64,000 nt of DNA from Paludisphaera borealis (GTDB lineage: Bacteria > Planctomycetota > Planctomycetia > Isosphaerales > Isosphaeraceae). This document shows positions 19,135-44,566 of the stretch, piece by piece. The notes under the pieces were generated by a model. It did not search any database and was not told the DNA's origin. It was given only the letters and a program-made list of their open reading frames with translations. Each line of letters begins with the position of its first letter. Within the stretch, counting starts at the first letter, position 1. The stretch spans positions 5,332,001-5,396,000 of the forward strand of contig NZ_CP019082.1 in the NCBI RefSeq assembly GCF_001956985.1, read 5' to 3'. The position numbers and the translations under genes were made by a program.

Positions 19135-19453
19135 CCGAATTTGGCGAAAGTCGGCGCGGCGGGTCGAGCCGGCCGATGATGAAACCGCGATCATGACGCG
19201 CGTCGTCCGCCGCGCCGCGGCGGGCGACCCCGAATTCTTGCGATCAAAGCAGAGGCACCGCGCTTGATCCAGCCGCACCGGGTCGAAATAATGGGTTAGG
19301 TCGAGGGGAAGACGGCTCATCGCCTAACTCCAAGACGGGGCTCAGTAATTCGATGGACACCTGGTCTCCAGGACAAAGTCAACCCGAGAGGATTGGTATC
19401 GAGATGACCAATCGACGTTCCATCGAATTCCCCGTTGGAGGCGAGTGACGACA
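19135..19453. other. Intergenic region within the secretion locus
   Basis: About 319 bp before pilT with no gene recognised. ACCTGGTCTCCAGG near 19360 is a short palindrome of unknown meaning. A separate promoter for pilT is possible given the length. Confidence 0.4.
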
Positions 19454-38378: not shown

Positions 38379-38606
38379 TCGTCGTGTGTATCGACTCGAG
38401 CGAGCCGACGGGCGGTTCGCCCGGAGCCCGGCCGCCCTGACCGTTGCCGTTGGTTGAAGGACGCGCGTCGCGGGCTTCCCGCGTGGAAACCGGGGCGCGG
38501 AGCCGCCGTCACGTCACAACATCACACGTCGAACGTATTGTCTAAGGGGGCAATACATCGATAAAATTCACCGAGTCTCGTTCTTCTGTCCATGAAAGGG
38601 TCGCTC

Positions 38607-39905
38607 ATGAATCCCCGTCGTCGTAGTGGTTTCACGCTGATCGAGCTGCTGGTCGTCATCAGCATCATCGGCGTCCTGGTCGGCATGCTCTTGCCGGCGA
38701 TCAACTCCGCCCGCGAGGCCGGCCGCCGCGCCGCCTGTCAGAACAACATGCGTCAGCTCGCCTTGGCCCTCAACGGGTTCGCCACCCGCAAGAACGCCTA
38801 TCCGGCCGCCGGCACGTTCTTCGAAGACCCCGTCAACGCGGTCAGCCCCGCGACGTCGATTCTGACCGCGGCCATCGGATCGGGCGCGACGGGAGTCGCC
38901 GCAACGACGACGGGTGCCGCCGGGTGGAGCTGGGTCGTCGACCTCCTCGGAGATCTTGACCAGGCCGACATGGCGAACAACTGGTCCACCCACTTCCCCT
39001 ACTGGTCGACAGTCGCTCCGGACACCGCGACGACCCCCAACGATCTGATCGGCCGGGCGTCCCTCGGCATTCTCCGATGCCCCGACGATACCAACACCAC
39101 TCCGAACGAAGGCAACCTCAGCTACGTCGTCAACGGCGGATTCACGCGGTTCGCGGCCAATCCCCTGGCGTTCGTCGGCCTTCAGACCGATGGCGACGCC
39201 AAGGGCGGCACTTCGGGGGCTCAGCTCCAGTGGTTCGGCGCGGCCGATCCCACCGGCTTGCTCGCCCAGGGCGTCCACCAGAAGCTCGGCGTGATGTTCT
39301 TGAACTCGGTTTACGACTCTCAGGCCCCCTCTCCCTACACCGCCCCCGCGAACCTCAACGGCCGCAACCCCGCCTGGGGCGGTCTGAAGACCACGGTCGC
39401 CGGCATCACTGACGGCGCGGGCTCGACGATCCTGCTGGGTGAGAACACGATGGCCGGATACTCCTCCGGCGGCGCCTACACGGGCGGCATCGCGTCCAAC
39501 TGGTCGTCCCCCTGGCCGGGCGTCATCATGTTCAACGCCTCCGACGACGTCTGCGAGACGGCCTTCCATGCGGCGACGGGCGCCTGTGTCACGGCGTTCG
39601 GAAGCACGTACAGCAACCAGAACGACAATGCCGCGTGGTCGAACGCCAACAAGCTCGGCTCTTATGAGAACATCGGATACGGAGCGATCCTGTCGTCCGT
39701 GAGCAAGGGGGCCTCGCCGTTCATCAACAGCGGCCATCCCAACGGTGCCAACTACGCCTTCTGCGACGGTGCCGTGCGGTTCATTAACAACACGATCGAC
39801 GGCACCGTCTTCGCCAAGATCGTCTCCCCCGCCGGCAGCAAGCTGCCGGTCGCGCCCGGTGCCTACAAGCAACTGCCGGTCAGCCAGGACGCCTTCGTGC
39901 AATAA
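38607..39905 (+). CDS. DUF1559 protein with type IV prepilin leader
   Basis: A 432-residue DUF1559 protein, a large planctomycete family of pseudopilin-like proteins. It has RRRSG8[24 protein letters not shown], then [20 protein letters not shown], the family signature, and the C-terminal [17 protein letters not shown] motif. The ATG at 38607 follows AAAGGG and gives a minimal leader; an ATG at 38592 has no ribosome site. It lies 228 bp after the GspK-like gene and before a strong terminator, so it may close the locus or be its own unit. Individual function is unknown. Confidence 0.9.
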
Positions 39906-40031: not shown

Positions 40032-41087
40032 TCAATGGATGGCCACGGCGATCGCGCCTCGCCGGGCGACTACGCGACCGACGACCGCCGCGGCGGGAGT
40101 GCCGCGCACGGTCAGCTCATCCACGAGGGCGGCGCAGCGGTCGGGATCAACGGCGATCAGCAGCCCGCCCGACGTCTGGGCGTCGAAGGCGAACGCGACG
40201 AGCGTCGGGTCGGCGTCGGAGTCGACCCGGAGCCGGCCTTCCAGGTGCTCGCGGTTCGTCGTGCTGGCCCGAGTGTGATAACGCTCGACGGCCAGGGGCA
40301 AGGCTCCCGCAATGATCGGCAAGGCCCGGGAGTCGATCTCCAGAGTCAGCCCGGCGCCCTGAGCCATCTCGAAGGCATGACCCGCGAGGCCGTAGCCGGT
40401 GACGTCGGTGAGGCCGTGCGCGCCTCCCGCTGCGCGGAGGGCATCGCGCGCGTCGGCGTTGAGTTCCACCATCTGAGCGATGGCGCGGGCCAGAACCTCT
40501 TCCGGGCACTCCTGGCGCTTGGCCGCCGTGGTGACGAACCCGGTTCCCAGCGGCTTGGTCAGGACGAGCCGGTCTCCCACGCGCGCTCCGGCGTTCGTCA
40601 AGAGTTCGGCCGGATCGACCAGCCCCGTGACGCTCAGCCCAAACTTGATCTCCTTGTCGCGGATCGTGTGGCCGCCGAGCGTGACCGCCCCCGCTTTGCC
40701 CACGCGGTCGGCCGCGCCTCGAAGGATCTCGGAGAGGATCTCCAGCGATGCGTCGTCGACCGGGAAGGCCGCGATGTTCAGGACCGTGATCGGCGTTCCG
40801 TTCATCGCGTAGACGTCGGAAAGTGCGTTCGCCGCGGCGATCTGGCCGAACGCGAACGGGTCGTCCACCAGCGGTGGGAAGAAGTCGAGCGTCTGCACCA
40901 GGGCCAGATTCGAGGCGATCCGGTACACCCCCGCATCGTCCATGGTCTCGGTGCCGACCAGCACGTTGGGATGGTTTGGGGCCTTGGCCCAGTCGCGGAG
41001 CACCTGGGAAATCCCTGCCGGCGAGATCTTTCCCGCGCACCCCGCGCAGTTGGCGTAGTCGGTGAGTCGTTTCGGGGTCGTCGTCAT
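40032..41087 (-). CDS. selD: Selenide, water dikinase (selenophosphate synthase)
   Basis: SelD makes selenophosphate from selenide and ATP, the selenium donor for selenocysteine-tRNA and selenouridine. The 351-residue protein has the catalytic Cys17 and Lys20 in NCAGCAGK, at the same numbering as E. coli SelD, which supports the ATG at 41087 (GAGG lies 5 bases upstream). Asp-rich ATP-Mg sites (METMDDAG-like region, LGGHTIRDKEIKFG) and the C-terminal HGLTDVTGYGLAGHA and DAQTSGGLL motifs follow. It starts 25 bp after the SelW-like selenoprotein gene, forming an operon of selenium maker and selenium user. selA, selB and selC are not in the window. Confidence 0.95.
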   Translation of the reverse strand: MTTTPKRLTDYANCAGCAGKISPAGISQVLRDWAKAPNHPNVLVGTETMDDAGVYRIASNLALVQTLDFFPPLVDDPFAFGQIAAANALSDVYAMNGTPITVLNIAAFPVDDASLEILSEILRGAADRVGKAGAVTLGGHTIRDKEIKFGLSVTGLVDPAELLTNAGARVGDRLVLTKPLGTGFVTTAAKRQECPEEVLARAIAQMVELNADARDALRAAGGAHGLTDVTGYGLAGHAFEMAQGAGLTLEIDSRALPIIAGALPLAVERYHTRASTTNREHLEGRLRVDSDADPTLVAFAFDAQTSGGLLIAVDPDRCAALVDELTVRGTPAAAVVGRVVARRGAIAVAIH

Positions 41088-41112: not shown

Positions 41113-41352
41113 TCAGGCCCCCAGCGCCTTGCCGACGGCGTCGACCAGTTGGTTCTCGTCCGGGAACTCGCCGGTTTGAAGTTTCGAGTAGAGGCGTTTT
41201 CCGCCGACGGTCAGCTCGAAACACCCCTTCGACGAGGGAATCATCACGTATCGGCTGATCGCCCGCTTGTAGCGGGTCAGAAGCTTCGCCGTCAAACTGA
41301 CGGCCTGCGGCTCGTAGCCTCAGAGGGCGCAGTATTCGAGCGTGATTTCCAT
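41113..41352 (-). CDS. SelW-like (Rdx family) selenoprotein with in-frame UGA
   Basis: A 79-residue thioredoxin-fold protein that ordinary ORF calling truncates. The ATG at 41352 has AAGGAGT 7 bases upstream. The reading is MEITLEYCALUGYEPQ, where codon 11 is TGA (41322-41320), giving a Cys8-x-x-Sec11 redox motif just where SelW/SelT/Rdx proteins carry CxxU or CxxC. The frame then continues with KLLTRYKRAI, PSSKGCFELTVGG and TGEFPDENQLVDAV, all Rdx-family features. A hairpin with a GUU loop starts 15 nt after the UGA, fitting a bacterial SECIS. The adjacent selD supplies the selenium. It is probably a cytoplasmic redox protein; its partner is unknown. Confidence 0.88.
41288..41304 (-). promoter_or_regulatory. 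Bacterial SECIS element
   Basis: On the minus-strand mRNA GCCGUCA-GUU-UGACGGC forms a perfect 7-bp stem with a GU-containing apical loop, starting 15 nt (loop 22 nt) after the UGA at 41322-41320. Bacterial SECIS hairpins lie in the coding sequence about 16-37 nt after UGA and present a conserved G/U to SelB. Position and shape fit. Confidence 0.8.
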
Positions 41353-41424: not shown

Positions 41425-42663
41425 TCAACCGACCGCCGAGGGCTCGCTCGTTTTGGAGGCGGGAGCAGGCTCGGCCGAGGCGTTCGAGAAGTCGGCGTCG
41501 GCCGCCGCCGGTTTTCGGGTGTCAGCCGGCGAAGGCGACTGCCAGTCGACACTCATCAGCTCGGCCCAGCGGTTCAGCTCGGGGACGGTCTGGCAGACGA
41601 GCTTGAGGCTGGCCGTGATGGGCATCGCCAGGATCAGGCCCGAGAGCCCCCAGATGTACCCCCAGAACAAGCAGGCGATCAACACCGTCGTGCCGTTGAG
41701 GTCGAGCGACTTGCCCATGACCATGGGAGTCACCACGTAGCCCTCGATCCCTACCACGGCGAGGTACATGGCCGCGACGATCAGGCCGTCGCCCAGCGAT
41801 CCCGACTGCCCCAGCGCGATCAACGTCGGCAGGGCGCCTCCCGCGAGCTGGCCGATATAGGGGATGAAATTCGTCACGGCCGCGAACAGCCCCAGCGGCA
41901 AGGCGAAGTTCACGCCCAGGACCCAGAGGCCGAGCGCCACGACCAGGCCCAGGCCGAGGTTGATGATCGTCCGCGCGATCAGGTACGCCCGGATCTTTCG
42001 CGTCACCTGATCCAGAATCAGATGAGCGCTACGGGCCGACTCCGGCGTCCGGGCGAAGAACCGCAAGACCTTGCTCGAAAGCATGTCGCTTTCGATCAGC
42101 AGGAAGATCACAAGGACCAGGACGATGAACCCCTGGACCACCCAGGCGGTGAAGTCGGTCAGCCCCAGGCTCAGCTTCTCGATCAGCAGGGCGCGGTTGG
42201 TGTCGCCGAGTCGGTCGATGGTGCCGGGTTCGGGGAGGATCACGCGGAGATACGGCTGGTCGCGAATCAGGTCGGTGATCCGGGCGCTGACCTGGCCGGC
42301 GAGCCGCTCGATGTCCGAAGGCAGCGTGTTGGCGGCGTGGACCAGGCTCTCGGCCGTCAGGCTGGCCAGATAGATCGCCCCCAAGACCAGCATTAGGAAG
42401 AACCCCAACGCCCCCATCGGCCCGAACGGGAACCATCGCCGGAAGAAGTTGGCGACCGGCGACAAGATGCACGCCAGCATCAGGGCGAACGCGATCGGCG
42501 CCAGGATCGTCTTCAGCAGGTAGAGCGCACCGACGACGCCCAGAACCGCCAGGATCACCTGAGAGGAGGCCGCATACTTCGCCGCTCGATCCAAAGCGAC
42601 TCTCCCACGACGGAAACCAGGAACGCATAGAGAACGAGGGCGAAGTGCCGATCCTTCCATCAT
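41425..42663 (-). CDS. AI-2E family (PerM/YdiK-like) transporter
   Basis: A 412-residue polytopic membrane protein of the AI-2E family, with seven to eight helices. It shows the family's early AFALMLACILSPVANFFRR helix-turn, the SDIERLAGQVSARITDLI periplasmic region and the conserved C-terminal NFIPYIGQLAGGALPTLIA, GYVVTPMVMGKSLDLNG and WGYIWGLSGLILAMPI motifs. Substrates in the family include autoinducer-2 and Na+(Li+)/H+ exchange; none can be assigned here. The ATG pair at 42663/42660 is chosen; an open frame extends to 42783 but overlaps a PP2C remnant. The last about 45 residues are a Pro/Ala-rich cytoplasmic tail. Confidence 0.85.
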   Translation of the reverse strand: MMEGSALRPRSLCVPGFRRGRVALDRAAKYAASSQVILAVLGVVGALYLLKTILAPIAFALMLACILSPVANFFRRWFPFGPMGALGFFLMLVLGAIYLASLTAESLVHAANTLPSDIERLAGQVSARITDLIRDQPYLRVILPEPGTIDRLGDTNRALLIEKLSLGLTDFTAWVVQGFIVLVLVIFLLIESDMLSSKVLRFFARTPESARSAHLILDQVTRKIRAYLIARTIINLGLGLVVALGLWVLGVNFALPLGLFAAVTNFIPYIGQLAGGALPTLIALGQSGSLGDGLIVAAMYLAVVGIEGYVVTPMVMGKSLDLNGTTVLIACLFWGYIWGLSGLILAMPITASLKLVCQTVPELNRWAELMSVDWQSPSPADTRKPAAADADFSNASAEPAPASKTSEPSAVG

Positions 42664-42725
42664 CGGGCCGTCGACCGTTCGCCGCAAGATCCCACGACGC
42701 GTCAGCCCGTTCGGGAGTCGGCGGA

Positions 42726-42851
42726 TTACGAGATCCGCTTGAGGACGACCAGAGTCAGATCGTCGGTTTGCGACGCGCCGCAACGGAAGTCGAGGACTTC
42801 GCGAATTACGCGTTCGAGGATCAGGGAATGGGTGGGAGTCAGAACGTTGAG
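42726..42851 (-). pseudogene. C-terminal fragment of a SpoIIE/PP2C-type phosphatase
   Basis: Just upstream of the transporter one minus-strand frame reads LILERVIREVLDFRCGAS followed by QTDDLTLVVLKRIS and a TAA. The QTDD(L/I/M)TLVVL motif is the conserved C-terminus of PP2C-like SpoIIE/RsbU serine phosphatases, where the Asp residues bind metal. No upstream part of the domain is present: the small lipoprotein gene ends 31 bp before it. It is a stranded gene tail, left by deletion or replacement. Confidence 0.55.
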
Positions 42852-43265: not shown

Positions 43266-44303
43266 TTACAGCGCGTCCGACGAGACGACTTCACCCCCGG
43301 CTCGTGATCCCAGGGCCCGCCATGCCTGAACCGCAACGGAATCCTTGACGAATCGCACCGAGCCGTCTCCCGCCAGGACGTTCACGCCTCCCGGATGGCC
43401 GCTGGAAGGCGTGACCTGCATGTACCATGGGAGGTTCATGGAATCGCCCGACCAGGAGCCCATCATTTGGGCGCTGTTCATGATCGCGCAGGAGCGGCCG
43501 TTCGGGGGCGCGACGTGGTTGTAGGCCGTGCTCGCCATCTCTCCCGAAGCCCAAGCCGAGCCTGTATGCTTGAACCAGACGCTTTTGTTCCCCCCGACCG
43601 CCTGGCAGTTCGCGTAGGTCTCGTCCGCCGACTTCGGCATGGGTCCTGTCATGGACATGTACCATCCCGAAAGATCCTTCGTCTTGATCCCGCCGCCAAG
43701 CAGCCTCTCACTCGCGAACGCGGTCTGGCTCATGCCGTCGGTCACCGAGGCCGGCCGCGCGGCGCTGCGGTCGGAGAAGGCGCCGACCGTCTCGGAGTTC
43801 TTGGTCGAATCGTACATCCAACCGCCCTGGTTGATGACGTAGCTGTTCCTGCCCTGCCAGTTGCTCTCGGTGTAGTCGGAAGGGCAAGTGAAAGTCGCGA
43901 TCGCCGCCTGGGAGGCCGTCGAGTTCTCCGGCACGGGGAGCGCCGGCAAGATCACGCCGCCCATCGCGTTGGCCCCCAGGTCCGGCGTCGTCGGCGACAG
44001 CGAGAAATTGATCGCGTTGAAAATGGTCGCCTGTTCAAGTTGCGGCAAGACCATGGCGTGGGCCGACCATCGACCATACCAGGGGGCGGTCGCGTAATAG
44101 CCGCCTCGTGCGAAGGGGAAGACGCCGTAGGCGCTCTCGTAAGTGTTCAGGGCGATGCCGAATTGTTTCAGGTTGTTCGTGCATTGCGCTCTCCGCGCCG
44201 CTTCCCTGGCGCTTTGAACGGCGGGCAGCAACATCGCGATAAGCACGGCGATGATCGCGATCACCACCAACAGTTCGATCAACGTGAACGCTCGACGACG
44301 CAT
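43266..44303 (-). CDS. DUF1559 protein with type IV prepilin leader (second copy)
   Basis: A 345-residue DUF1559 protein. The short leader [30 protein letters not shown] has Ala rather than Gly at -1, a common variant in this family, then [22 protein letters not shown], the signature, and a C-terminal [17 protein letters not shown] motif equivalent to [17 protein letters not shown] of the copy at 38607. The ATG at 44303 lies right before the leader. It may form a unit with the lipoprotein downstream. Role is unknown; such proteins are thought to be cell-surface pseudopilin-like. Confidence 0.9.
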
Positions 44304-44566
44304 GGCGAGAAGGCTCCAACGGGATATTTTGGGAGGGATGAATATCGCAATGACGCGAGGCCGCGAACCTTCGCTTGGCCGGCGCAACCCAGATGAGGAC
44401 AAGGTTTGATCAGGTGGAATCCGCGGCGATCGTCGTCGCCTGCGTCCCGAACCGCGCCTGGCGTATTTCACGGGGTTCCACGGAAACCCGACTCGTCAGG
44501 GACGACGGTGCAAACCAACGCCCAAGAGGGATCGGGCGAGAACCGCGGCGACGCCGATGAACAGGA

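Follow-up and report, generated by a model that had tools for sequence, protein, structure and literature searches.

The window, that is the whole stretch of 64,000 nucleotides analysed here, carries on its minus strand at 41352-41113 a gene that almost certainly encodes a true SelW-like (Rdx) selenoprotein, in which selenocysteine (Sec) is read from an in-frame UGA. An earlier note on this DNA had proposed the same, and the proposal is supported by the membership of the product in the Rdx family, by Cys or Sec at the corresponding position of the relatives, by the presence of selA, selB and tRNA-Sec in the genome and by the conserved adjacency of selD; the description in that note was confirmed in every detail checked. 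The gene, referred to here as selW, adds a well-supported member to a known gene type and is not a new phenomenon.

Reading frame and protein family

The frame reads MEITLEYCAL-TGA-GYEPQAVSLTAKLL...GKALGA-TGA. It opens with the ATG at 41352, and the Shine-Dalgarno that had been noted for it is the purine-rich, Shine-Dalgarno-like AAAGGAG at 41366-41360 on the minus strand, 7 nt ahead of the start codon; a similar sequence is found upstream of many selW relatives too. The TGA at 41322-41320 is codon 11 and lies, as described earlier, within the motif C8-A-L-U11, followed by 68 open codons up to the TGA stop at 41115-41113. With U for the TGA at codon 11, the product has 79 residues, MEITLEYCALUGYEPQAVSLTAKLLTRYKRAISRYVMIPSSKGCFELTVGGKRLYSKLQTGEFPDENQLVDAVGKALGA.

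The suggested Rdx membership was borne out by two profiles, PF10262 (E-value 2.9e-17, 63.1 bits against a cut-off of 22.6) and TIGR02174 (2.3e-17, 63.0 bits against a cut-off of 34.2), both of which match over nearly the full length and across the UGA. The best NCBIfam match by E-value (7.3e-19) is SelTWH_Campy (NF041051), a SelT/SelW/SelH family (seleno)protein; since its score of 67.8 bits is below the curated cut-off of 88, the product is not regarded as an equivalog of that family. A targeted family search found no second Rdx gene in the genome. The AlphaFold model, computed with 30 relatives, has a pLDDT of 94.7 and a predicted thioredoxin-like Rdx fold, in which the C8-A-L-U11 motif sits after beta strand 2-8, and both Cys8 and Sec11 are invariant in the alignment of 30 sequences (with U shown as C). 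The nearest structures in the PDB are the SelW-related proteins 2fa8 (Atu0228), 2obk and 2p0g at 1.2-1.3 Å, or 1.2-1.5 Å if 2oka and 3dex are included, followed by MIEN1 and mouse SelW. The five bacterial Cys-type structures (2fa8, 2obk, 2p0g, 2oka and 3dex) share the fold and the position of the CxxC/CxxU pair at 23-27% sequence identity, but have Cys where selW has UGA. Mammalian selenoprotein W (2npb) likewise has both the CxxU motif and the Rdx fold, whereas its eukaryotic SECIS element lies in the 3' UTR and that of selW is a bacterial SECIS inside the coding region.

Genomic neighbourhood

The next gene in the same direction is selD, encoding the selenide water dikinase (selenophosphate synthetase) in its Cys form (40032-41087, minus strand; TIGR00476, 4.5e-106; TGC at the aligned codon). 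Its ATG at 41087 follows the selW stop by 25 nt, the spacing given in the earlier note. On the other side, at 41425-42783 on the minus strand, lies a long ORF with an approximate start, which we take to be an AI-2E family transporter-like gene, a name recognised from the sequence and not from a profile scan. This left neighbour is conserved beside selW in several genera and has orthologues in five sister species; several other genera show the order AI-2E, selW, selD and a gene with a Tat-type signal sequence.

It could be argued that selW and selD lie side by side by coincidence, without forming a functional unit. Four family genomes have selW with no selD within 1.5 kb, and many other planctomycete loci are not adjacent either, so adjacency is common, not universal. 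Against this, 15 of the 19 family genomes have selD 3' of selW and in the same orientation, with a gap of 16-310 bp, and the adjacency recurs at certain loci of more distant planctomycetes and of Verrucomicrobia. Moreover, in all five other species of the window's genus (L153-L157, G028-G032) the AI-2E gene is followed directly by the Tat gene, selW and selD being cleanly missing together. A chance arrangement is therefore considered unlikely. selW and selD are probably co-transcribed, and the 25-nt gap, the shared strand, the conserved adjacency and the joint loss are consistent with this. The simplest history is an ancestral order AI-2E-selW-selD-Tat from which the selW-selD pair was removed in the sister species; the window species has kept the pair, and its Tat gene does not adjoin. 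Of the five sister species, four are without selA as well. One (G030) carries selB, selA and selD in a compact cluster (L158, G030:C68:157000-168000), and its selD is only 48% identical to that of the window, which suggests that its Sec trait may be of separate origin.

The selenium locus is flanked in the window by genes with a prepilin-like N-terminus, at 38592-39905 on the plus strand and at 43266-44471 on the minus strand. Large planctomycete families of the DUF1559 type typically have such an N-terminus.

Conservation of the in-frame UGA

Within the Isosphaeraceae, selW was found in 19 of 45 genomes, and the in-frame TGA is kept in all 19. The same holds for the relatives on GTDB contigs, mostly from Planctomycetota with a few from Verrucomicrobia, Acidobacteria, Firmicutes and others, all of which have TGA at codon 11 (66/66), while a scan of 392 Planctomycetota genomes gave a match in 133, with TGA in all but 10 of the matches listed. 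The 85 collected SelW loci of the same type, representing 74 distinct sequences, keep the UGA without exception and without drift to TAA or TAG. In the Cys homologues 2ljk, 2fa8, 2obk, 2p0g and 2oka and in L037, a Cys stands opposite the UGA, in line with the expectation of Cys or Sec at codon 11. Of the 85 loci examined closely, 82 keep the Cys of the CxxU motif. Two of the remaining three have a second TGA at this position, and the third is a degenerate-looking copy. This copy (L036, G042:C39:93483-93704, minus strand) has Arg for Cys8 and changes at other conserved residues with the UGA retained, and appears to be either a gene in decay or the result of poor assembly.

The SECIS hairpin

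Downstream of the UGA, the apical stem-loop of a bacterial SECIS element, GCCGTCA-GTT-TGACGGC, is located at 41304-41288 on the minus strand. It is the perfect 7-bp stem with a GUU loop that had been described, its 5' arm beginning 15 nt and its 3-nt loop 22 nt after the UGA. The published bSECIS model comprises a loop of 3-9 nt, an upper stem of 4-16 bp, a G in the first two loop positions and a distance of 16-37 nt from the UGA (PMC13188914), and the selW hairpin falls within all of these ranges. Rfam gave only sub-threshold chance matches over the region. The minimum fold of 65 nt is the described hairpin. With the fold restricted to the first 45 nt, a register overlapping this one is preferred; the described register is nevertheless favoured because it is the one supported by covariation.

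A read-through frame with a hairpin is not rare in a window of 65% GC. Under a simple rule requiring the frame to be open on both sides, 149 read-through TGA frames were counted, three of them with a comparable hairpin, and the case for Sec therefore rests on conservation. The other two frames (TGA at 19194 and 25347) were rejected, as they end in ordinary stops followed by non-coding-like sequence. For the selW hairpin, stem pairing in the 74 distinct sequences was set against 2000 resamplings in which synonymous codons were drawn from those genes: on average 6.14 of the 7 stem pairs are formed, as opposed to 4.50 ± 0.10 expected and a maximum of 4.84 in the shuffled sets. The codon of Ser19, which covers the stem end and the loop start, is AGT in 67 of 74 sequences, although AGT accounts for 7% of the serine codons elsewhere in those genes. 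Compensatory changes are found at the third stem pair, where C-G is replaced by U-A in nine sequences, and at three further pairs in single or few sequences (C-G to U-A, C-G to G-C, U-A to C-G and G-C to A-U). The selW hairpin is thus under selection at the RNA level. A minority of SelW genes show a shifted register at nearly the same place, for example CAGGC-CGUGA-GCCUG; in L072, L080, L084, L089 and L098, GTG AGC replaces GTC AGT.

If the UGA were a real stop, the locus would encode only a 10-residue leader or a 60-residue protein starting from the TTG at 41295. Mechanical ORF calling does place the start at this TTG, which gene callers would annotate, in agreement with the earlier prediction that standard gene callers would truncate the gene to start after the UGA. 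However, no Shine-Dalgarno sequence precedes the TTG, which begins on the final base of the hairpin loop, and the conserved part of the protein begins at M1 and takes in the first strand and the Cys of the CxxU motif. In addition, the UGA never appears as TAA or TAG in the 85 loci. A real stop is very improbable. For a Cys-type SelW gene altered by a nonsense mutation or a sequencing error, the change of a single base would be enough, TGC and TGT being one base from TGA, but this explanation, which has next to no probability left, is already refuted by the conservation of the UGA, identical in 19 family genomes and in over 100 independent genomes across the phylum, and is opposed by the RNA-level selection downstream of it. 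Reassignment of UGA to Trp, Gly or Cys in the organism is just as extremely improbable and already refuted, since TGA serves as a normal stop codon in this gene cluster, terminating selW, selD and the upstream gene alike, and furthermore the genome holds a complete Sec machinery and the homologues have Cys at the site, not Trp or Gly.

Selenocysteine machinery and proposed mechanism

The genome (7.65 Mb, 99.9% complete) contains the genes whose presence had been proposed as a check on the selenoprotein: a tRNA-Sec gene (selC) with the anticodon UCA (78.8 bits), and selB (348 bits) and selA (476 bits) adjacent to each other at C1:4.04 Mb. With selD in the window, the machinery is complete. Across the family, selA scored above its cut-off in 30 of 45 genomes, and selW occurs in 19 of these 30 as opposed to none of the other 15 (hypergeometric p = 2e-5, with genomes counted without correction for kinship). 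The 15 genomes counted as selA-negative include a few incomplete assemblies and one genome (G022) in which selA is split on two contigs.

In the true selenoprotein reading, a ribosome reaching UGA codon 11 would meet SelB carrying Sec-tRNA(Sec) and bound to the hairpin just downstream, and Sec would be inserted. The selenophosphate required for Sec-tRNA would be made by SelD, encoded next to selW in the same direction. The resulting thioredoxin-like protein of 79 residues would carry Cys8-x-x-Sec11 as a redox pair; given the family membership, the selenol would be expected to attack an oxidised substrate, with Cys8 as the resolving residue.

A protein that may keep Sec decoding

Of the 15 selD genes that lie beside selW in the family (the window and relatives L019-L036), 13 encode Sec (TGA), and those of the window species and of the Aquisphaera insulae relative encode Cys (TGC). 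Sec and Cys are exchanged in SelD while SelW stays with Sec. The search for further selenoproteins was made by targeted families, namely FdhA, AhpC/TSA and Rdx. In both full-length Fdh-alpha-type proteins the Sec site is occupied by Cys (SRYCQAP and GRYCMAS), the site having been located by visual comparison with the known sequence context of FdhF. A weak Fdh-alpha match with two TGA codons (C1:1544498-1545022) corresponds to positions 372-551 of the model, whereas the Sec site is N-terminal.

The SelW-like protein, and not FdhA or SelD, may therefore be the selenoprotein, perhaps the only one, that keeps the Sec machinery in this species. We put this forward tentatively, as a possibility with somewhat less than even support, because FdhA and SelD use Cys here, none of the 36 AhpC/TSA-type matches has an in-frame UGA, and the four sister species mentioned above lack selA together with selW-selD. 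A survey from 2006 found no bacterial selenoproteome without FdhA or SelD (PMC1794560); if the suggestion is true, the species is an exception to this generalisation. The selW-selD pair, jointly absent from the sister species, offers a natural comparison for the role of SelW, and the same comparison of carriers and sisters could indicate which client sustains Sec decoding when both FdhA and SelD use Cys.

Relation to known SelW-like proteins

Catalogues of bacterial selenoproteins have included SelW-like members with the CxxU motif since 2005 (PMC1088965, PMC2398784, PMC13188914). These outnumber every other family in the Sargasso Sea set, with 48 genes, and in the GOS set, with 427 (PMC1088965, PMC2398784). 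Current reviews describe them as predicted with high confidence (PMC9312934, PMC13188914). The gene analysed here agrees with the members known from the Sargasso Sea, GOS, Geobacter sulfurreducens and Desulfotalea in its family (PF10262/TIGR02174), its CxxU motif, its SECIS after the UGA and its predicted redox role (PMC1088965, PMC1794560, PMC2398784, PMC13188914). It differs from them in its origin from an Isosphaeraceae-type planctomycete, in the Cys-form selD beside it and in the conserved AI-2E-selW-selD-Tat neighbourhood. Sec machinery was reported in 2016 for Isosphaera pallida and Gemmata obscuriglobus (PMC4807772); a planctomycete SelW is not named in the main text of PMC1088965, PMC1794560, PMC2398784 or PMC13188914. 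The value of the present case is that it provides a securely supported selenoprotein, which standard gene callers would truncate, in a family whose bacterial members the reviews give as predicted selenoproteins.

SelW relatives with two in-frame UGA codons

Among the relatives, SelW genes with TGA at both codon 8 and codon 11, reading YU(A/S)MUGYEP, were observed in three species of two genera. They are L159 (from 1483), which is the same locus as L069 (from 5000); L160 (1544-1323, minus strand), the same as L081 (from 5000); and L161 (1544-1314, minus strand). In the reviews, SelW-like proteins are described as CxxU proteins with one Sec only, and UxxU is given for other families (PMC9312934, PMC13188914); a double-Sec SelW of the UxxU type is thus apparently unreported. 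Two further sequences with two TGA codons each (G240 and G411) were considered as UxxU proteins and rejected, since they have CxxU at the motif and their second TGA is not codon 8. The UxxU relatives raise the question of whether two UGA codons spaced by nine bases can share a single bacterial SECIS. Counted from the UGA of codon 11 their hairpin is 22 nt away, and from that of codon 8 it is 31 nt away. Both distances fall within the published range, and in all three of them Gly replaces the usual Asn after Sec11.
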